Origin: a virus
Direction: 5' to 3' (one strand)
DNA: 42,914 nucleotides
Virus record (IMG/VR): IMGVR_UViG_3300021594_000673
Span: 1-42,914 of that record
Below the pieces are notes generated by a model. The model saw only the letters and a program-made list of their open reading frames with translations. It was not told the origin of the DNA and did no database searches. Below are positions 4,494 to 41,064 of this stretch, piece after piece (position 1 is the first letter of the stretch; every line of letters begins with the position of its first letter). The position numbers were made by a program, and so were the translations under genes.

Positions 4494-4967
4494 TTACTCT
4501 GAGAGTAAAAGAGTGAAATAAACAGTGTCATCTTTCTTATAACAAGAAATGTAGAACTTGGTGTTGGTAGGTTCAATTAGACTTTTATGATGTAATGGTG
4601 ATTTTTTTAAACCATCCAAAATTACAAACACACCAAATCCAATATTGTTAAACTCACTAACCCAACGTTCACCACAATTTTCATAACAAGAAATATTTTT
4701 TAAATTAATTTCTTTTTCAACCCTTTTCTCAAAGGTAAAATTACCTTCACCGTGAGTTCTATACCCCAAACTTGCTTGATAATAAGTGTGTTGGTCAACA
4801 AAGTTTTTATATTTTGGTTCTAAAACAACATTTGTCAAACCTAAGGAGTTTCTATACATGTTGATAGAATCTTGAAACATCTCAAAAAAAGAGTTGTTAG
4901 TCAAAAATTGAGCTTGAACGGTGATAGTCGAGATAAACATTGCGATGGTGGTGATTATGTTTTTCAT
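4494..4967 (-). CDS. secreted CAP-domain protein
   Basis: A clear signal peptide (MKNIITTIAMFISTITVQAQ) is followed by a short CAP/SCP-like domain: FQDSINMYRNSLGL, a later CYENCGE, and SPLHHKSLIEP with a closing YFTLLLSE strand. CAP domains in bacteria are often secreted and of unclear function. At 157 residues it is compact for the family. The signal-peptide cassette and promoter are near-copies of those of the gene at 5734. It has its own Bacteroidota promoter, so it is probably transcribed early by host polymerase. Confidence 0.6.
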   Translation of the reverse strand: MKNIITTIAMFISTITVQAQFLTNNSFFEMFQDSINMYRNSLGLTNVVLEPKYKNFVDQHTYYQASLGYRTHGEGNFTFEKRVEKEINLKNISCYENCGERWVSEFNNIGFGVFVILDGLKKSPLHHKSLIEPTNTKFYISCYKKDDTVYFTLLLSE

Positions 4968-4988
4968 GGTTTATTTTCCTTTCTTATA

Positions 4989-5020
4989 CAAAGATACAAA
5001 TAATATTCCAATTGCACAAT
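4989..5020 (-). promoter_or_regulatory. Bacteroidota-type promoter
   Basis: On the minus strand ATTG (-33) is followed after exactly 20 bases by TATCTTTG (-7), matching the Bacteroidota consensus. It reads into the CAP-domain gene. Confidence 0.65.
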
Positions 5021-5037
5021 TTTTTCTTTATTAATTG

Positions 5038-5045
5038 TATTTATA
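5038..5045 (+). promoter_or_regulatory. TATTTATA motif, putative phage promoter
   Basis: TATTTATA ends 16 bases upstream of the ATG at 5062, back to back with the host-type promoter for the CAP gene. Confidence 0.4.
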
Positions 5046-5061
5046 TGTAAATCACAAAAAT

Positions 5062-5685
5062 ATGAGAAAATTATTTAATATTGACCAAGACGAAAAAAAT
5101 AGAATTTTAGAAATGCATGAAAATGCAACTAAAAGACATTATTTGAATGAATATAGTGGTGTTGCCTTTGGTGATGAACAAAATGGTTTAAAAATTGAAA
5201 AAGTTGAAACTAAGGAGCAAGTTAGAACTGGTGAGGTTACACCTGACCAACAAAAACAAATGTTTGATAAAGACATGTTAGCTGTTAATGAAAAATTACC
5301 TTTGGATTATAAAACATTGGCAACTATGTCATCAAAATTAAATGGTATTGAAAAAAGTTTGGTTGGACCACAATTTGAAACGGCTTTAGCAAGTGTTTGG
5401 GGCGATGATTTAATTAATCAATTTAACAAATCAATGTCAATACTTGGATATCAATTAGGTCAAGAGGGAGGTTACAGAACTATGATGGGTGGTAGGGAGA
5501 TTGGTAATGTAAATTCAATCGCTGCAGTATTAGCAATGGTTAACGATTTAAAACTATTAAAAGATGGTTTAACTTATTTAGCACAAATAAAGGCTGGAAT
5601 GAATGTAATTCCAACAGATTCGGTTAAACAAGCGTTACCATATTTAAAGAATTTTTCACAAAAAAATCAATTAGGTTTAGCTTAA
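5062..5685 (+). CDS. tagged helical protein, possible internal head protein
   Basis: The ATG at 5062 gives MRKLFNIDQDEKNRILEMHE, very like the start at 3602, and HYLNE|Y near residue 30 is a good T4-type prohead-protease site. The remaining 175 residues are helical with a Gly-rich stretch (GQEGGYRTMMGGREIG). No enzyme motif is seen. A bidirectional terminator follows. Confidence 0.6.
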   Translation: MRKLFNIDQDEKNRILEMHENATKRHYLNEYSGVAFGDEQNGLKIEKVETKEQVRTGEVTPDQQKQMFDKDMLAVNEKLPLDYKTLATMSSKLNGIEKSLVGPQFETALASVWGDDLINQFNKSMSILGYQLGQEGGYRTMMGGREIGNVNSIAAVLAMVNDLKLLKDGLTYLAQIKAGMNVIPTDSVKQALPYLKNFSQKNQLGLA

Positions 5686-5705
5686 AAAATATTTAACATT
5701 ATTTT

Positions 5706-5736
5706 AAAAAAAGGGACTCAAATAGTCCCTTTTTTA
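5706..5736. terminator. bidirectional intrinsic terminator
   Basis: AAAAAGGGACT pairs with AGTCCCTTTTT around a short loop, with A and T runs on either side. It serves the convergent genes ending at 5685 and 5734. Confidence 0.8.
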
Positions 5737-6162
5737 TTTAAGATTTTTGGGTAACCAAGATACCCAACCTTGAGTCATGAACAAATCTTTTCTCCAAACA
5801 CACATCAAGAATGTTGGGTTATATTTGTCAAAGATATAAAGATAGTCAGTTCCGTCACGTGAACTCACAGTAAATGATTGATAATTATTTTCAGAATGAG
5901 AATCAATGATTGGTCTTACAACTACTGATTTATTGAAAGAGTCAACATCGGTCATAGTATTTTTAACACAATCAAAGATAAAAACAACATTTGATGTTAC
6001 ACCCATCAATTTGGTTTCTTGGTTGTTATTCAAAACTTCCATAGAATTCAACCCTGAAGTATGTTCAAAATTGTAGAAACCCTTACAATGAAACTGATAG
6101 ACTTGTGCTTGAGCGGTGATTGTCAAGATAAACATTGCGATAGTGGTGATTATGTTTTTCAT
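5734..6162 (-). CDS. secreted protein, unknown function
   Basis: The start at 6162 gives the signal peptide MKNIITTIAMFILTITAQAQ, 18 of 20 residues identical to that at 4967. The mature part (about 120 residues) has two CVxN/CVWR cysteines and several beta-like strands, with no family I recognise. Its cassette (promoter, leader, signal peptide) looks duplicated from the CAP gene while the mature parts are unrelated. Confidence 0.55.
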   Translation of the reverse strand: MKNIITTIAMFILTITAQAQVYQFHCKGFYNFEHTSGLNSMEVLNNNQETKLMGVTSNVVFIFDCVKNTMTDVDSFNKSVVVRPIIDSHSENNYQSFTVSSRDGTDYLYIFDKYNPTFLMCVWRKDLFMTQGWVSWLPKNLK

Positions 6163-8064: not shown

Positions 8065-8271
8065 TTACTTTTTTACTTCACACTTTGTTTCACAAACTGA
8101 ATCACACACAGTTGAATCACACATAGATGAATCACAGTTGTTTATACATTTAATTGAGTCACACATAACAGAATCACAAACAGTTGAGTCAACATTTGTA
8201 GTTTCAGTTGAGTTGTTACAAGCTGCCACTAAGGCTCCTACCATTACGATTGCAAATAATACTTTTTTCAT
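8065..8271 (-). CDS. Cys-rich lipoprotein with CDS repeats
   Basis: The start at 8271 gives MKKVLFAIVMVGALVAAC, a lipoprotein signal with the lipobox Cys at residue 18. The mature 50 residues carry repeated CDS tripeptides (VCDSVMCDS, CDSSMCDST) and 11 further cysteines. It could bind metal or form a disulfide-linked surface layer; function is unknown. A TATTTATG box lies 15 bases upstream of the ATG. Confidence 0.65.
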   Translation of the reverse strand: MKKVLFAIVMVGALVAACNNSTETTNVDSTVCDSVMCDSIKCINNCDSSMCDSTVCDSVCETKCEVKK

Positions 8272-8286
8272 TTTTTTAATATTATA

Positions 8287-8294
8287 CATAAATA
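8287..8294 (-). promoter_or_regulatory. TATTTATG motif, putative phage promoter
   Basis: On the minus strand TATTTATG ends 15 bases upstream of the lipoprotein ATG. Confidence 0.35.
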
Positions 8295-8317
8295 TATGGT
8301 AATTGTCAATAAGACAA

Positions 8318-8866
8318 TTAAATAAATTTTGATTGGAATTGGTAATGCCACACGTCTAATGGATTGAGGACATAAAAGTCATCTCCATAATTGAAACCTT
8401 GAATACAACTATAAACTGAACCATCAGTCAACGTAAATGTATCACAAACAATTTCTATTTTAGACAAATCAATTTTTTCATCCAAGTAAATAATTTCATC
8501 TAACAGCGAACCTTTCTGTTTACGTACTACTAAAAGATGTATAGTATCAGGAATTGCATTTTCTTCATGTTCCTCAAAATCAATTATTGTTTTTAATTCT
8601 GAAAGTTTTCGGTCAAAAACAATTTTATCAAATTCATCGTAAATTGTGATTTTTGATTCTTCAGGAATTGCACCATCAATAATGTCAATGTCACAAATGT
8701 CTGACCATTCACAATTTAAAACATCGGTTAATTCGTTGAAAATTGTCTCAGAAACTGAAATGTTAGTTTCTTTTGAAAAGTTAATAATTTTTTTTCTTTG
8801 TTCATTGGAAACGGAACCCAATGAAATTTTTTGACTAATGCCTGAAATTACTACGTTATATTTCAT
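8318..8866 (-). CDS. hypothetical protein, paralogue of 25476-26084
   Basis: The 182-residue acidic protein starts MKYNVVISGISQKISLGSVS. It shares a layout with the product of 25476-26084: MKY start, a (S/T)-(N/D)-E-Q helix, a W-containing stretch, DIDI(I/W)DG, then a beta strand ending in a D-(E/D)-x-(D/G)-K-x-V turn. The two are probably paralogues of an unnamed phage family. Confidence 0.5.
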   Translation of the reverse strand: MKYNVVISGISQKISLGSVSNEQRKKIINFSKETNISVSETIFNELTDVLNCEWSDICDIDIIDGAIPEESKITIYDEFDKIVFDRKLSELKTIIDFEEHEENAIPDTIHLLVVRKQKGSLLDEIIYLDEKIDLSKIEIVCDTFTLTDGSVYSCIQGFNYGDDFYVLNPLDVWHYQFQSKFI

Positions 8867-24081: not shown

Positions 24082-25350
24082 TCAAAATACCATAGAATTT
24101 ATAAAACTATTTGATTTTAATACGGATTTTTCAATTGTATCAAGAATAAAATCCAAATTTAATGATGAAATGTTACCAATTGAGATTCTAAACCATCCTT
24201 TATTTTCTTTGGAACCAAAATATTCAAAAGGAACAATTCCCAATCCACAAGTATTAATTAAGAACGAAATATATTCTTCTGTAGATGAAAATGAATGGAC
24301 ATAACCCAAATAAACTGAAATATAAATTCCACCATCAGGTTTTTGATAATCAACATCTAAACCCTTTGTCTTCAACTCTTGAAACTTTTCACATATTTGG
24401 GTTGATAAATATTCATACTCTTTTGTAACATAATCAATGTGTGACAAATAATCATCATGATTTTCTTTGATGTATCTGGCCAATGCTGTTTGTTCAGGTT
24501 TTGGTGCCCAAGCTCCGATATGAGACAAGACCTCAGTCATTTTCCCAATCACATCTTTTGGTCCAAACAACCAACCAACACGAACACCAGTTGCGTTTAA
24601 TGATTTTGAAATACCGTCAGCACAAATCAAATAATCTTTAATTTCAGGACACAGTGTTAATGGGTGTACAAATAAACCATCTTTGGTAATGTCAGAATAA
24701 ATTTGGTCAAAGAACAAATACAATGGTCTTGTATATGCTTGATTTTTTCTGATATTGTTTTCATCAACAATTACCTGACAAATACCTTTCAAAACTTCTG
24801 AATTAATTACACGACCTGTTGGATTTTGTGGTGAACAAATACAAATTAAAGATGTATTGTCCCTCAATTTATTTTTAACATCTTCAACGGTTGGAAAAAA
24901 TGAATTTTCAGGTGAACATTCAATTTCTTGTTTTTCAGCGTTATGTAAAAAACAATAATGGTTGTTATTCCAAGATGGTGTTGGATAAATAACACCCTCA
25001 CCCGGATTTACCATTGATTTATAAACTGTATAAATCAAAGGTCTAACACCACCACCAATTAAGATTTCTTCAGGTGAATAATCAACATTGAATTGATGTT
25101 TAATATGTTTTGAAACAGATTCCCTTAACTCAATTTCACCTTGTGAATTTGGATAATTTGTTAAACCATGTTCATAAGCTTCTTGAATGTAATCACTTAA
25201 TTTTGTTGGTATTGGCCATAATTTGGAACTAAAGTCACCAATGGTTAAGTTTGATACAGGTTTTGTTTTTGCAATTTCTTTGATTTGTTGTGAGATTTTG
25301 ATAATCTCAGAACCGACGATTTGGTTCCCTACTCTTGATAATTTTTCCAT
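24082..25350 (-). CDS. PLP-dependent aminotransferase, class I/II
   Basis: The 422-residue protein is full length for fold-type I aspartate-aminotransferase-like enzymes. Visible motifs are the substrate/cofactor loop NYPNSQGEIELRESVSKHIK-type start, CSPQNPTGRV (cofactor-ring Asn), FFDQIYSDI (Asp and Tyr of the PLP site) and ADGISKSLNATGVRVGW, where Lys of SKSL forms the Schiff base and R is the phosphate anchor. It would move an amino group between an amino acid and 2-oxoglutarate-like acceptor; the substrate is not readable. A TATTTATA box precedes it. It sits between two tRNA arrays, an unusual place for a metabolic gene. Confidence 0.8.
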   Translation of the reverse strand: MEKLSRVGNQIVGSEIIKISQQIKEIAKTKPVSNLTIGDFSSKLWPIPTKLSDYIQEAYEHGLTNYPNSQGEIELRESVSKHIKHQFNVDYSPEEILIGGGVRPLIYTVYKSMVNPGEGVIYPTPSWNNNHYCFLHNAEKQEIECSPENSFFPTVEDVKNKLRDNTSLICICSPQNPTGRVINSEVLKGICQVIVDENNIRKNQAYTRPLYLFFDQIYSDITKDGLFVHPLTLCPEIKDYLICADGISKSLNATGVRVGWLFGPKDVIGKMTEVLSHIGAWAPKPEQTALARYIKENHDDYLSHIDYVTKEYEYLSTQICEKFQELKTKGLDVDYQKPDGGIYISVYLGYVHSFSSTEEYISFLINTCGLGIVPFEYFGSKENKGWFRISIGNISSLNLDFILDTIEKSVLKSNSFINSMVF

Positions 25351-26297: not shown

Positions 26298-26299
26298 GG

Positions 26300-26377
26300 T
26301 AGTCAGGACAGGATTCGAACCTGTAACACCGGTTTGACCACTCACGTGGTCGCGTCTAACCATTCCGCCACCTGACT
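26300..26377 (-). ncRNA. tRNA-like element with a tetraloop in place of the anticodon
   Basis: Acceptor AGTCAGG/CCTGACT, a Leu-type D arm (GCGGAATGGTTAGACGC) and T arm ACAGG/CCTGT with TTCGAAT are intact. The anticodon arm is GACCAC-GTGA-GTGGTC, a 6-bp stem with a GNRA tetraloop, or at best a six-base loop on 5 bp. A small variable arm follows. No usable anticodon is seen. Confidence 0.55.
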
Positions 26378-28418: not shown

Positions 28419-28448
28419 AAAAAACCCGAACCTTGTGAGTTCGGGTAT
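28419..28448 (-). terminator. leader terminator (attenuator) of the 12-tRNA array
   Basis: On the minus strand ACCCGAAC pairs with GTTCGGGT and a T run follows. The 5' arm ACCCGAAC can instead pair with AGTTCGGGT (28481-28489) in the end of the leader ORF, which would block the terminator. This is the arrangement of a translational attenuator. Confidence 0.7.
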
Positions 28449-28618: not shown

Positions 28619-28645
28619 TATTTTTTATTTTTTTTTTATTTTTTG

Positions 28646-28717
28646 TGGCCCTGACGGGGTTCGAACCCGTGACTATCAGTTTTAGAGACTGCAATGTTAC
28701 CGCTACACCACAGAGCC
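28646..28717 (-). tRNA. tRNA-Sup(CTA), amber suppressor
   Basis: Acceptor GGCTCTG/CAGGGCC, discriminator A, D arm GTG, TAGCGGTAA, CAT, anticodon stem CAGT/ACTG (outermost pair G-A open) with loop CTCTAAA, T arm ACGGG/CCCGT with TTCGAAC. C34-T35-A36 reads UAG. The arm is one base from that of tRNA-Trp(CCA) in this window; the D arm resembles Gln-type tRNAs, so the inserted amino acid is open. Confidence 0.88.
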
Positions 28718-28721
28718 AATT

Positions 28722-28796
28722 AGAGGTCGGAGATAGATTTCCACTATCCTAAGGGGTCTTGCGGACCCTCACCTAAGTACTCAGCCACCCGACCTT
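28722..28796 (-). ncRNA. tRNA-like element without a TTC T loop
   Basis: Acceptor-like AGGTCGG/CCGACCT and a Ser/Leu-type start (GGTGGCTGAGTACT) are present. The middle hairpin GGGT/ACCC has loop CCGCAAG (C at position 33), and the T-arm hairpin GATAG/CTATC has loop TGGAAAT in place of TTCRA. Probably not a normal substrate for the ribosome. Confidence 0.45.
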
Positions 28797-28896: not shown

Positions 28897-28928
28897 CAAA
28901 GTTATTAAACTTCTTTCATATTTTCAAC
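28897..28928 (-). promoter_or_regulatory. Bacteroidota-type promoter of the suppressor-tRNA unit
   Basis: On the minus strand GTTG, 20 bases, then TAACTTTG, overlapping the end of the gene at 28905. It can express tRNA-Sup independently of the upstream Pth2 operon. Confidence 0.6.
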
Positions 28929-29246
28929 CATATTCAGATATTCTTCTTTGGTTGTTTTTTTCTTTGGGACATACCCTCTGTTTTCTCGTCTTCTATTAAC
29001 CCACTTCTTTAGGTTTCTGTCGTTACGGTAGTTTTTTATTTCATCTGAGGTTTCCTTATAAATCTTCATAACCTCATCAAAAAGTTTAACTTTATCTTCA
29101 TCAGTTAATTTTTTTCTTTCACTTAGACATGCCCAGTATTCTCTTGAATATGGTTTGTGATGGGTACATACACCTAAAAGTTTATGGATTTTATTTGAGA
29201 AAGCCGATTTAATCATCATTGTTGGGTTGTGTTTTGTGTTTTTCAT
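28905..29246 (-). CDS. hypothetical basic protein, 113 aa
   Basis: A Lys/Arg-rich helical protein starting MKNTKHNPTMMIKSAFSNKI with two Cys/His pairs (VCTHHKPYSREYWAC) that could bind metal, and a basic WVNRRRENRGYVPKKK stretch suited to RNA or DNA. It follows the amber-containing gene by one base, so it is the third gene of the Pth2 operon. Confidence 0.5.
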   Translation of the reverse strand: MKNTKHNPTMMIKSAFSNKIHKLLGVCTHHKPYSREYWACLSERKKLTDEDKVKLFDEVMKIYKETSDEIKNYRNDRNLKKWVNRRRENRGYVPKKKTTKEEYLNMVENMKEV

Positions 29247-29247
29247 T

Positions 29248-29505
29248 TTAGTAAATTTTTGCTGTTATTTTATTGTTTTCCTCACTAATGGACAATTGTC
29301 CTTTGAATTTTATACTCCCTTTAGTGTGGGGATTGTCGGGAGTTTCTTTTGTTGAAAAACCAATTCCTGGTAATACATCAACGTGGTCAACGTAATGTGT
29401 ATCACCACGACACTTCACAACCCACATTGGGATTGTTGAGTTCTGAATGTGTTTCTTGTTAAAATGAAACACAATTTCTTCTTTTTTTTCTGTTATCTAT
29501 TTCAT
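29248..29505 (-). CDS. hypothetical protein with in-frame amber at codon 3
   Basis: The frame starts ATG AAA TAG ATA ACA (amber at 29497-29499) and stays open for 82 more codons. An in-frame GTG at 29472 gives a 74-residue alternative start. The body (IPMWVVKCRGDTHYVDHVDV, then STKETPDNPHTKGSIK) matches a small beta-rich family common in T4-like phages with no proven function. The start lies four bases after the stop of the Pth2 gene, and the first five codons mirror those of that gene. Confidence 0.6.
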
Positions 29506-29509
29506 AAGT

Positions 29510-29839
29510 TTATTGTTTAAGTGCTAATGGTAATGATTTTGTATGTCCATGACTTTTTTCATTGTGTTGAAACGCAATGGATGTTAACTGATTATTCAAA
29601 TCAGGTTCGTAGAATGTGGAAATAGGAATTCCAAACGATTCTAACTTTTCTAATACTTTGTTTAATGATTGTTCGTTTTCGGTGGATAAACAAATAAGAT
29701 AGTTATTGTTCCACTCTTTTGATTTTTCAGGATGCTCCAACAGATATTGAGCAATTGCATGTCCTGATTGTGCGATTTGAGCACCTGGCATCAAATCTTT
29801 TCTTGTAACTACGTAGAGTCTGTTTGTAATCTATTTCAT
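29510..29839 (-). CDS. Pth2-type peptidyl-tRNA hydrolase with in-frame amber at codon 3
   Basis: The frame reads ATG AAA TAG ATT ACA AAC, then N-R-L-Y-V-V-T-R-K-D-L-M-P-G-A-Q-I-A-Q-S-G-H-A. LYVVTRKDLMPGAQIAQSGH is the first strand and helix of the Pth2 fold (compare VVRTDL..GKIAAQ.SHA) and FYEPDLNNQLTSIAF is its C-terminal signature. The amber codon is at 29831-29833. There is no ATG between it and the conserved strand; the internal TTG/ATG at 29794/29791 would delete that strand. Pth2 frees tRNA from peptidyl-tRNA. Full-length product should need the amber tRNA encoded at 28646, or a rare AUU start. Promoter-like TTTG lies at 29872-29875 with TATATATA 20 bases on. Confidence 0.75.
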
Positions 29840-29875: not shown

Positions 29876-30025
29876 TTAATTTTTTGTATATTTCAATTTA
29901 GTTACGATTTTGGTTGGTTTTTCATTTTTTTTCATCAATTGGTCCATTTCAAAACTTGTTGGGTCTTTATGAACAACCTTAATGTATCTATTAAACTTAA
30001 ACCAAGATAATATCTTTTTAATCAT
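29876..30025 (-). CDS. small basic protein, 49 aa
   Basis: MIKKILSWFKFNRYIKVVHK begins a basic ORF (12 Lys) coupled to the M23 gene by TAATG overlap. An amphipathic start and basic tail are seen; no family recognised. Confidence 0.5.
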   Translation of the reverse strand: MIKKILSWFKFNRYIKVVHKDPTSFEMDQLMKKNEKPTKIVTKLKYTKN

Positions 30026-30723
30026 TATGATGCTTTTGTACAGTAGTTTTTGTTAATATGTTTTGATGGGTCAACAAATGAACCATCTTTTTTCAATTCA
30101 AAGTGTAAGTGAGCGTCTTCTGAATTACCTCTTTTGCTTGCTGAATCAGATTTGTCACCACCTGATTTTCCAATCTCTTGTCCTTTTAATACAAATTCAC
30201 CTTTTTCAACACTTCTTGATGATAAGTGACAAAACTTTGCCTCATATCCATTATCAAATTTAATCTTAATCATTCCACCACAATCAGAAGCGTTGTCAGT
30301 AGAATCAATAATTTCACCGTTAAATGGTGAAACCAAAGTTGTACCTTGTTTTGCCTTTAAATCATTTGCTGAATGTTTTTCACTCTTACCATCTCTTGTT
30401 CTATCACCAAATTCACTTGTAACCTCCCACTCATATTCTGTACCACATAAAGGTGAAATCATATCATCAGTTTTTGATGGGTCTTTTTCAACAGACTTGA
30501 AGAAATCTTTGATTTTATCACCAACGCTTTTATCATCGGAATTTTTAGAGTCATCACTATCTTCATCATCATCACCATCAAAAAAATCTTCAATTTTTTT
30601 AACAATTTCAGAATCTTTAATTTTATTGATAATATCGTCCAACATATCTTCATTAATAGGTTTTAAACCCATTAATTTTCTCATTTTGTTGGACTCTTCC
30701 TTAAGAATTTCTTTTTTGTTCAT
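30025..30723 (-). CDS. M23 metallopeptidase with N-terminal tag
   Basis: The tag MNKKEILKEESNKMRKLMGL plus PINE|DMLDDI gives a likely prohead-protease site at residue 25; EDMLDDI is shared with the lysozyme-like gene at 1773. Residues 50-80 are acidic and disordered. The peptidase domain has EKHSANDL (His117, Asp121), HLSS near 166 and AHLHFEL (His205, His207), the zinc ligands of lysostaphin-type peptidases, which cut peptidoglycan cross-bridges. With the tag this looks like an internal or virion-borne wall hydrolase used at entry. A TATTTATT box abuts the start. Confidence 0.8.
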   Translation of the reverse strand: MNKKEILKEESNKMRKLMGLKPINEDMLDDIINKIKDSEIVKKIEDFFDGDDDEDSDDSKNSDDKSVGDKIKDFFKSVEKDPSKTDDMISPLCGTEYEWEVTSEFGDRTRDGKSEKHSANDLKAKQGTTLVSPFNGEIIDSTDNASDCGGMIKIKFDNGYEAKFCHLSSRSVEKGEFVLKGQEIGKSGGDKSDSASKRGNSEDAHLHFELKKDGSFVDPSKHINKNYCTKAS

Positions 30724-36903: not shown

Positions 36904-38556
36904 ATGTCGTTAAATCCGCAATTAAAAGAAGGTGATAGAGTAGTTTGTTACTACATGGAAGGTGAAACATCAAATGTTCCTATTGGTACCACAGGTACTG
37001 TCACAAAAATAGTACGAGTTCCATTCGGTTTGGGTATACAATACAGCGTTAAATGGGATAATGATTCTACTTTAGATTTAATACCTGAAACTGATGCTTG
37101 GGATTTTGAATCTGAAAATGTATTAGGTGAATCTATAGAAAAATTTGTCAATGTATTAGTTGATGATGGTTTAAATCCTGACGATTTTGAAGATGAAATT
37201 ACTAAGTTAAATGATGATGATATTACCGATGAATTTTTAAGGAATATTGACCGAAAATTATTAAAGTCAGGTGATAAGACTGAAAATGTAAAAAAATATA
37301 TTGACAAATATCTTAAATCTTTAGAGGATAGAAAAGATATTGAATCAGAACCAAATGATGATTTTGACGAAGATGAATTTATGTATGGTTCGGAAGAACC
37401 AATTAAATCTAAAATTGGTAAAAAACAATATATAAAAGAATTGATGCCAATGCAAGTTGAATTATTAAAATTACAAGAAATGGTTAAAAACTCAGGAAAA
37501 CCATTTCTTGTTGTTTTTGAAGGTCGTGATTCGGCAGGAAAAGGTACAATGATTAGAACTTTAACACAATACTTAGACCCAAAATATTTTAAAGTAGTTG
37601 CTTTAGGTGTACCAACACCTGAAGAAAGAAAAAATTGGTTTAATAGATATGAAAGTCAAATGGAACCAAATAAATTAATTTTCTTTGATAGAAGTTGGTA
37701 TAATAGAGGTATTGTTGAACCTGTTATGGGTTATTCATCTGAAGATGAATATAAAGACTTTATGGAAAATGTTTATCCATTTGAAAGAAGTTTAGTTAGT
37801 GCGGGAATACCATTATTTAAATTTTGGTTTTCAATAACACCTGAAACACAAGAAAAAAGATTTAATCTTAGAAAGTCATCACCATTGAAGTATTGGAAAT
37901 TTTCACCAAACGATGCCAAGTCATTAGAAAAATGGGATGATTATACTGAATACAAGAAAAAAGCGATATTGGCAACAAAAACAGCTTCGCCTTGGTACAT
38001 TATTGACACTAACGATAAAAGAGCGGGTATTTTAAATGCTCTACGTGTAATCTTAAATAATACTGATTACCCTGGTAAAAATGATGAGCATATTGGTATG
38101 ACGTATCCTGAAATTGTAACCACCGTAAAGGAAGACGCTCTACATGAAATGACTTTAACTAAAAAATCAAAATTAATTCAAGAGTCACGTGAATTGGAAA
38201 CAATGTTTAGAAGGGACGATGCTTATAGTAACATAGAACCAAAAGATTGGGACACAATAAAACAATATTTGGAATTTTTAAGAAAAACAGGTATTGTCAA
38301 CATGTACCAAGCCGCTCCATTTCTGTACGCACCTTTAGAATGGATTACTGACCAAGCAAAATGGAAAGACTTAGATGAATACTCAGAAGCCGCTCTTGAG
38401 GGTCTAATTGAGTTAAACCCACAAGTTCAGGGGATAATGGTAAATGCAGCAATTAAATCTTTAGGTGATAAAGATTTTGATGTATCAGAGGTTAATAGTA
38501 AATTAAGAAAAATTTCAATTCATGTTCTTGAAGATTTATTTCAAAACTGGTCATAA
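36904..38556 (+). CDS. polyphosphate kinase 2 family protein with long extensions
   Basis: Residues 172-400 are a PPK2 domain: FEGRDSAGKGT (Walker A, 206-215), FFDRSWYNRGIVEP (Walker B, from 260) and a lid region FNLRKSSPLKYWKFSPNDA. PPK2 moves phosphate between polyphosphate and nucleotides, usually making NTPs from NDPs or NDPs from NMPs. The usual length is about 270-300 residues; this one has 550. The first 70 residues look like an SH3-like barrel (GDRVVCYYMEGETSNVPIGT), followed by an acidic helical linker, and about 130 helical residues follow the kinase. A phage could use it for nucleotide supply from host polyphosphate. Confidence 0.85.
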   Translation: MSLNPQLKEGDRVVCYYMEGETSNVPIGTTGTVTKIVRVPFGLGIQYSVKWDNDSTLDLIPETDAWDFESENVLGESIEKFVNVLVDDGLNPDDFEDEITKLNDDDITDEFLRNIDRKLLKSGDKTENVKKYIDKYLKSLEDRKDIESEPNDDFDEDEFMYGSEEPIKSKIGKKQYIKELMPMQVELLKLQEMVKNSGKPFLVVFEGRDSAGKGTMIRTLTQYLDPKYFKVVALGVPTPEERKNWFNRYESQMEPNKLIFFDRSWYNRGIVEPVMGYSSEDEYKDFMENVYPFERSLVSAGIPLFKFWFSITPETQEKRFNLRKSSPLKYWKFSPNDAKSLEKWDDYTEYKKKAILATKTASPWYIIDTNDKRAGILNALRVILNNTDYPGKNDEHIGMTYPEIVTTVKEDALHEMTLTKKSKLIQESRELETMFRRDDAYSNIEPKDWDTIKQYLEFLRKTGIVNMYQAAPFLYAPLEWITDQAKWKDLDEYSEAALEGLIELNPQVQGIMVNAAIKSLGDKDFDVSEVNSKLRKISIHVLEDLFQNWS

Positions 38557-39894: not shown

Positions 39895-41064
39895 TTAATT
39901 AGAAAGTGGAAAATAAATCTTAGAATGTGATTGATAATTTTTCAAAATAACATCATTTACTGATGAACAGTGGATTCCGTCTCTAACGTGTACTGTTGGT
40001 AATTCAAACGGTTCTCTTGTACGTCTTGGGACTAAGAATTCATCACATAACTTCATAACATCTTCGTTTGATGAATAAGATGATAATTTAACTAAAAAAT
40101 CTTTATTATCTTTAATCAACTCTAATCTTTCTTCATAACTAAACTCTCTACCAATTTGTTCTTTAACACCGTCCATTTGGTTCAAATAGATGTGACAATC
40201 TCCTAAATTACCAATTAGTTCTTCAGGTATCATATTAACTTCATCCGCAATCATCATTAAAAGAAGTCCATATGATGCTATATTCATTGGAATTCCTAAT
40301 GGAACGTCACACGAACGTTGATTCCACATTAAAGAGATTGCTCGTTTAGGAACACCTATTGAATTATAATACTCCATTTCATCACCAGTTCCATCCCATT
40401 TTCCAGAATACTTACCCGTTCTTAAATGTACATATCTCTCACTCTTACTTAATTCTCTCGTATAAACTTGAAATCCATAATGACAAGGAGGAAGAACCAT
40501 TTGGTCTAATTCTCCTACATTCCAAGCTGAAACCATTAGTCGTCTTGAGTCTGGATTTGTTTTAAGGTCGTTGATTAGGTTTTGGATTTGGTCTATTTGT
40601 TTTGTATAAACACCAGGGTCAACTATTTTCTCATCACGGGTTGCATTTCGGCTCCAACTTCTCCATTGCTTACCATAGATTGGTCCTAACTCACCCCACT
40701 CCTTAGCAAACTCATCATTAGTTTTAATCAGATGAATGAATTGGTCTTGGTTCCATATCATGTCAGGGTCACCTTCACTTGTAGTCATAAAGTTTTTGAA
40801 CGCATCACCATCCCAAATATGGCAATCATTATCAACAAGGTATTTGATGTTTGTATCACCTCGTAAAAACCATAGTAATTCTGTCACCATTGTCTTCCAA
40901 GCCATTTTCTTGGTTGTAAGTAATGGAAACCCATCACTCATTTTATGACGGATTGTATAACCAAAAATAGATTTGGTTCCTGTACCTGTACGGTCTTTCT
41001 TTTCTACACCATAATCTAAAATAGATTTGAGTAGGTCTTGGTATTGTTTATCTAGGTTGTTCAT
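39895..41064 (-). CDS. thyA: thymidylate synthase
   Basis: The 389-residue protein has all ThyA landmarks: DRTGTGTKSIFG near the start, ELLWFLRGDTN, GPIYGKQWR, the phosphate-binding pair SRRLMVSAWN, catalytic Cys194 in LPPCHYGFQ, RSCDVPLGIPMNIASY, and GDCHIYLNQ. It makes dTMP from dUMP with methylene-THF. It is longer than the 264-residue E. coli enzyme because of inserts around residues 85-110 and 205-235. The C-terminus ends KIYFPLSN rather than the common IKAP-type tail, which is instead found at the end of the neighbouring GIY-YIG gene. The start overlaps the upstream small gene by 17 bases. Confidence 0.95.
   Translation of the reverse strand: MNNLDKQYQDLLKSILDYGVEKKDRTGTGTKSIFGYTIRHKMSDGFPLLTTKKMAWKTMVTELLWFLRGDTNIKYLVDNDCHIWDGDAFKNFMTTSEGDPDMIWNQDQFIHLIKTNDEFAKEWGELGPIYGKQWRSWSRNATRDEKIVDPGVYTKQIDQIQNLINDLKTNPDSRRLMVSAWNVGELDQMVLPPCHYGFQVYTRELSKSERYVHLRTGKYSGKWDGTGDEMEYYNSIGVPKRAISLMWNQRSCDVPLGIPMNIASYGLLLMMIADEVNMIPEELIGNLGDCHIYLNQMDGVKEQIGREFSYEERLELIKDNKDFLVKLSSYSSNEDVMKLCDEFLVPRRTREPFELPTVHVRDGIHCSSVNDVILKNYQSHSKIYFPLSN

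Follow-up and report, generated by a model that had tools for sequence, protein, structure and literature searches.

A phage amber-suppressor tRNA and its linked start-proximal amber codons: a putative translational switch

The stretch of DNA analyzed here, referred to as the window, is the entire 42,914-base virus record IMGVR_UViG_3300021594_000673. ARAGORN predicts 31 tRNA genes in the window, all of them on the minus strand, and one of these has the anticodon CTA. The features around this gene are, in their order along the minus strand:

29510..29839, minus strand: gene B, a Pth2-type peptidyl-tRNA hydrolase, beginning ATG AAA TAG ATT ACA, with the amber as codon 3 (TAG 29833-29831)
29248..29505, minus strand: gene A, an 85-aa protein of no known family, beginning ATG AAA TAG ATA ACA, with the amber as codon 3 (TAG 29499-29497)
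28905..29246, minus strand: gene C, which separates A from the tRNAs and encodes a 113-aa protein of unknown function, without an amber
28723..28794, minus strand: tRNA-Cys(GCA)-like gene adjoining tRNA-CTA (ARAGORN), with an unusual T loop
28645..28717, minus strand: amber-suppressor tRNA gene with anticodon CTA (ARAGORN), the proposed trans-acting key
28424..28446, minus strand: terminator-like hairpin and T run 3' of tRNA-CTA (consensus scan), setting the unit apart from the main array of tRNAs

Gene A starts four bases past the stop of B, and both lie upstream of tRNA-CTA on the same strand. Gene C has no family match at 0.01. The consensus scan found four terminator-like sites in the region, where 1.2 are expected, but such a scan does not prove function. 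The T loop of the tRNA-Cys-like gene reads TGGAAAT, the usual form being TTCRANY; a tRNA-Cys next to A recurs in several related loci, where its T loop is mostly normal. Elsewhere in the window lie a tRNA-like gene with an anticodon left undetermined by ARAGORN (26298-26377, minus strand), a class I/II aminotransferase within the tRNA region (24082-25350, minus strand), an M23 peptidase (30025-30723, minus strand), a PPK2-type kinase (36904-38556, plus strand) and a long thymidylate synthase (39895-41064, minus strand).

An earlier sequence-only reading had proposed an amber-suppressor tRNA with a CTA anticodon at this locus, and this held, both in ARAGORN, which places the gene at 28645-28717 on the minus strand, and in a cloverleaf parsed by eye. 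The acceptor stem is GGCTCTG/CAGGGCC, the D loop contains GG, the anticodon arm is GCAGT-CTCTAAA-ACTGA, the variable loop has 5 nt (TAGTC), the T arm is ACGGG-TTCGAAC-CCCGT, and the discriminator is A73. The ARAGORN label “tRNA-Pyl” is the program's name for any CTA anticodon. The body of tRNA-Pyl has a 3-nt variable loop, a 6-bp anticodon stem and a D loop without GG; a pyrrolysine tRNA identity is thus ruled out for the window gene by its 5-nt variable loop, short anticodon stem and D-loop GG. The same reading had put the anticodon arm one base away from that of the phage's own tRNA-Trp, which is only partly correct: there is one mismatch in the loop, but there are three in the whole 17-nt arm, and the remainder of the molecule is quite different.

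Two codon-3 ambers had also been claimed, and both were found, in B and in A, as ATGAAATAG at 29839-29831 and 29505-29497 on the minus strand. The surrounding 11-mer ATGAAATAGAT occurs twice in the window, only at the starts of B and A (0.09 copies expected; 0/100 shuffles). When the TAG is read through, the product of B matches Pfam PTH2 (PF01981) over residues 8-78 with 28.5 bits against a cut-off of 23. Protein A has no family match in Pfam, NCBIfam or PHROGs. AlphaFold models of the window protein and of a 188-aa form reach mean pLDDT values of 92 and 88, respectively; the core is mainly beta, and the long form adds an alpha/beta half. In the PDB, the core has no significant fold match (best Z 3.8), and the C-terminal half of the long form reaches a Z of at most 5.0, reflecting a common alpha/beta arrangement only. 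Profile searches gave weak similarity of the core (MWVVKCRGDTHYVDHV...FSTKETP) to a WW domain, with E-values of 0.01 to 1.7, probably by chance.

Relatives of A were collected by IMG/VR searches and from isolates, giving 289 loci with 163 distinct sequences, which form 87 clusters at 85% amino-acid identity. An in-frame stop codon just past the start is present in 64 of the 87 clusters, and this stop is TAG in 64/64 and TAA or TGA in none. The amber lies 7-14 codons ahead of a conserved FHFN core and 1-9 codons after the ATG, mostly two, with a single codon separating ATG from TAG in 39/64 prefixes; a Shine-Dalgarno (SD)-like sequence precedes the ATG in 52/64. TAG is followed by A in 57/64 clusters and by G in 6/64; a U at this +4 position has been linked to lower readthrough (PMC5289835). 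The codon after TAG encodes Ile (AUH) in 48 of the 64 genes and is AAC, AAA, CCC, ACT, GTT or similar in the other 16. Over 2,356 sequence pairs, pN/pS is 0.22 for the nine-codon stretch that separates TAG from the core and 0.19 for the core itself. Since the two values are so close, the stretch between TAG and core appears to be translated, although it contains no ATG in the majority of the genes. What is expected of programmed readthrough, i.e., a stop conserved at one position together with coding conservation beyond it, is therefore met (64/64 TAG; pN/pS 0.22). Homologues of A were found neither in 84,980 bacterial and archaeal genomes (genome_contigs) nor in plasmids (PLSDB), which suggests that the family is confined to non-integrating phages. 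In the isolate RHph_I1_18 (MN988519), A is unannotated and reads ATG AGT GAG TTC ATG TAG AAC GAA behind AGAGGAAAGG, and an annotated tRNA-Pyl(cta) starts about a dozen bases past its stop. Where A has no amber, a B gene overlapping or preceding it usually has one; in three clusters (L065, L068, L250) no amber in A and no gated B were found, and two of these (L065 and L250) have a tRNA-CTA.

The pattern at B is equally uniform: all 33 complete Pth2 genes upstream of A contain a TAG only a few codons into the gene (MK*, MT*, MTH*, MKN*, MS* and others, the asterisk marking the amber). In one group of loci (L018-L029), A has no amber of its own and its start overlaps the end of the amber-gated B, so that a single gate on B might possibly serve A as well via translational coupling, which is an inference. 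One of these loci (L028, around 4850-6010) also contains an amber-bearing pth2 fragment, which enters an unrelated frame upstream of a second, complete amber-gated pth2. Isolated phages show the arrangement too: in Tenacibaculum phage pT24, ATG AAA TAG ATA ACC lies ahead of Pth2, whose annotated start is too late, and a tRNA-Sup is annotated 2.6 kb upstream; Acinetobacter phage ME3 has ATG ACT TAG ATT at Pth2 and a tRNA-CTA about 400 nt upstream; and Xanthomonas phage XacN1, in which the search used detected no A homologue, has AGAGGATTAATACC ATG AAG TAG ACC ATT ahead of a Pth2 fusion. The Aeromonas phages phiAS5 and ZPAH1 served as negative controls: their Pth2 genes lack an amber, and the flanks of about 2.5 kb are free of tRNAs. 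In pT24 (L341) and XacN1 (L349), Pth2 is fused, in opposite order, to a domain with the motif HD(L/I)GKP...RHFPNHAQ. The Pth2 genes of the mycobacteriophages Myrna (L342, 2980-2990) and Alice (L375, 2471-2480) start [AG]TG TAG GTG and have a tRNA-CTA immediately downstream; because the GTG behind the TAG lies at a suitable position relative to an SD-like sequence, gating is uncertain in these two phages.

How tightly the ambers are linked to the tRNA can be read from the loci of the 64 amber-bearing A clusters. In the locus sequence examined, a tRNA-CTA lies on the same strand in 50 of the 64 and on the opposite strand in none. Where the locus contains exactly one tRNA gene, its anticodon is CTA in 30/30 clusters. 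Four further contigs carry the tRNA-CTA farther off, and about ten, many of them fragments, have none in the sequence searched. Amber-gated genes and tRNA-CTA thus form a conserved module in related phages. The tRNA-CTA bodies are highly diverse among relatives, so that the common element is the anticodon and not one tRNA lineage. The discriminator is A in most relatives and G in some; together with the diversity of the bodies, this suggests that the identity of the inserted residue perhaps matters little.

A third gene family is linked to tRNA-CTA in the same manner. In the Stenotrophomonas phages Summit, DLP3 and DLP5, the tRNA-CTA comes after a small gene, D, and upstream of D lies a strictly conserved mini-ORF, ATG AAG TAG GTC TAC AAG CCG CCN TAA (MK*VYKPP-stop), behind AGAAGGAGAAGACC. 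Other D leaders encode MKS*IRPPP (DSS3_MAL1), VIEPL*IKKPP (OLIVR1, with a GTG start) and MSTEGM*VFKPP (locus L357). The 5' arm of a hairpin follows directly after the PP-stop, and its 3' arm includes the SD region or the start of D. Folding of this hairpin is significant in MAL1 (z -3.3), OLIVR1 (z -4.1) and L357 (z -4.6), while the hairpin of the Summit group is weak and not significant. An attenuator is expected to combine a leader ORF that contains a stall motif with a hairpin over the downstream ribosome-binding site, and this combination is present in MAL1, OLIVR1 and L357. Termination after Pro-Pro is slow in E. coli, which suits a stall. The tRNA before the amber leader of OLIVR1 (L352, 1312-1388) is annotated as Val, and ARAGORN finds a loop with CCTA; the final stop of this leader is TAG followed by G, and a four-base reading is not excluded.

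Among 56 distinct D loci from IMG/VR, an amber directly after a start codon occurs in 13/13 loci with a tRNA-CTA vs. 2/43 without (Fisher 5.6e-11). As assigned by reading the sequences, the gate in the 13 loci lies on D itself (MT*I..., four loci), on a leader ending in PP-stop, or on a leader of the form M[KTM]*LSTGPP or MA*VARQRGPP that reaches the D start. Two amber-gated D loci (L377 and L412) have no CTA in 6 kb. Linkage to tRNA-CTA is consequently seen in three unrelated gene families, A, B and D, and a start-proximal amber arrangement is present in the isolates RHph_I1_18, pT24, XacN1, ME3, Summit, DLP3, DLP5 and DSS3_MAL1.

The interpretation put forward here is that tRNA-CTA acts in trans as the key of a translational switch for the amber-gated genes. 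This is very likely, but the readthrough, the on direction and the purpose of the switch are inferred, and there are no expression, proteomic or reporter data. In the absence of the phage tRNA, release factor 1 would terminate translation at the codon-3 UAG of B and A, and only a Met-Lys dipeptide would be made. Once the phage tRNA is transcribed, processed and charged by a host synthetase, some ribosomes would read the UAG and produce full-length B and A. With B, A and the tRNA in one same-strand block, the arrangement would amount to a coherent feed-forward (AND) gate, whose output would require both the mRNA and a pool of charged suppressor tRNA competing with release factor 1. The same kind of key might open D in other phages, either by a start-proximal gate or via a leader ORF that ends in Pro-Pro-stop or contains Gly-Pro-Pro: a ribosome that has passed the UAG would pause and thereby open the hairpin over the D ribosome-binding site, or couple into D. 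The anatomy, the TAG-only conservation, the purifying selection behind TAG in A and the linkage to tRNA-CTA are shown. It is inferred that the tRNA becomes charged and decodes the gating UAGs, that its absence keeps the genes off, and that the D ribosome site is opened by stalling on the leader. A delay or an AND gate is likely because the gated genes and the tRNA are co-located. As one of the gated genes clears peptidyl-tRNA, the switch most likely ties clean-up functions to UAG suppression versus release factor 1, although this is the least certain part of the proposal.

The most obvious alternative is global recoding, i.e., that TAG is read as an amino acid throughout the genome (code 15, known from some crAss-like and Lak phages) and that B and A are merely two recoded genes. 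The presence of a tRNA-CTA, which is one hallmark of code 15, is in line with this, as is the rarity of TAG as a stop, which had been claimed beforehand and held: the 45 non-overlapping ORFs >300 nt in the window end in TAA (35), TGA (9) or TAG (1). However, another hallmark, in-frame TAGs that break many genes including structural ones, is absent from the window, where long genes read without interruption under table 11, with no need for TAG readthrough. A scan for gate-like sites (ATG, up to nine codons, TAG, at least 60 open codons) returned nine structures, and once those that overlap a longer ORF or have an ATG within six codons of the stop are set aside, only B, A and a weaker candidate at 8065-8373 are left. 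Moreover, TAG still serves as a terminator, ending 34/453 long ORFs in contigs with amber-class A genes and 2/66 annotated genes in Rhizobium phage RHph_I1_18. Global recoding is thus refuted at the level of the window and all but excluded, and, at this level, the presence of tRNA-CTA is not a sign of it. The preference of the sequence-only reading for regulatory readthrough of a few sites is supported by the comparative evidence, since the site is TAG-only in relatives, purifying selection extends beyond it and tRNA-CTA travels with the gated genes; expression itself has not been measured. Gene decay or sequencing errors, for which nothing speaks beyond the in-frame stop itself, are likewise all but excluded: the amber-bearing genes come from independent contigs and from isolates, selection is purifying past the stop, and the stop is exclusively TAG, so that conservation refutes this explanation.

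Two further alternatives assign a function to the stop itself. The TAG could be an insulating stop, with translation of B and A beginning just past it at a rare start codon (AUU, AUA, AUC or GUG). In favor of this idea, an Ile codon directly follows TAG in 48/64 A genes, where rare non-AUG starts are not wholly excluded, and the GTG after TAG in Alice and Myrna is at a good distance from a Shine-Dalgarno-like sequence. Nevertheless, it is very unlikely: the codon after TAG is not Ile in 16/64 A genes, TAA and TGA would be expected as well, yet neither is seen, and the idea explains neither the linkage to tRNA-CTA nor the D leaders whose TAG is followed by a 5-codon peptide with PP-stop at its end. 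Alternatively, the ATG-NNN-TAG minigene could act as a drop-off sensor that yields peptidyl-tRNA, such that the downstream Pth2 regulates itself by clearing it. The bar minigenes of phage lambda are known to make peptidyl-tRNA, B is a peptidyl-tRNA hydrolase, and the single codon between ATG and TAG in 39/64 A prefixes would fit. This explanation is very unlikely too, though, since the ATG-to-TAG distance varies from 1 to 9 codons, the stop is solely TAG with tRNA-CTA as its strict partner, and the gate also occurs on A alone and on D without a Pth2. The switch keyed by tRNA-CTA remains the preferred reading.

A bolder version of this reading is still likely: phage amber-suppressor tRNAs would be dedicated trans-acting regulatory RNAs with small regulons, comprising gates on Pth2, A and D and amber-sensing leader attenuators, and would constitute a natural switch common to many unrelated lytic phages, which would account for orphan suppressor tRNAs without reported targets. 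Candidate targets can now be named in XacN1, Summit and many other phages with suppressor tRNAs, and the open question of what these tRNAs are for becomes directly testable in cultured phages. The gated genes were missed before because the amber precedes the start chosen by gene callers, so that the gene is either omitted (RHph_I1_18) or trimmed at its start (pT24). If the proposal is true, phages that retain TAG as a stop possess a natural switch in which a tRNA is the key to gene expression, and the D leaders are attenuators that sense stop-codon suppression. The gates would also represent ready-made parts for orthogonal gene control.

In the open-licence literature searched, no description of natural amber gates was found, though phage suppressor tRNAs, which are reported from large phage genomes, are described there. 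The studies on XacN1 (PMC5852040) and Summit (PMC9022506) examined readthrough past gene ends and reported no target of the suppressor tRNA; both phages have the same kind of tRNA-CTA, and a start-proximal amber is present in both. TAG-recoded phages with code 15, such as crAss-like phages (PMC9523058; PMC7886860), are similar in that a phage tRNA-CTA reads in-frame UAG in phage genes, and regulation of late genes through genome-wide stop-codon recoding has been proposed for them. However, TAG occurs in many of their genes, whereas in the gated phages one or two start-proximal ambers per genome are seen and TAG is kept as a stop elsewhere. A start-proximal stop codon that reads out the state of translation termination is also known from prfB, the gene for release factor 2, which is autoregulated by an in-frame stop; there, the mechanism is +1 frameshifting at UGA, whereas the phage gates are proposed to use a dedicated tRNA that reads UAG in frame. 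The D leaders resemble translational attenuators of the ermC and tna type in having a short ORF with a stall motif (PP-stop) and a hairpin over the downstream ribosome site, but the input of the former would be amber suppression, while the latter respond to an antibiotic or tryptophan. The logic is also shared with a suppressor-tRNA feed-forward loop built in E. coli, which removes leaky expression (PMC7969014) and in which, as proposed here, the coherent feed-forward gate consists of a suppressor tRNA combined with an amber placed in its target gene. That loop is synthetic, whereas the phage gates are natural and occur across many phages on specific gene families, namely Pth2, A and D.
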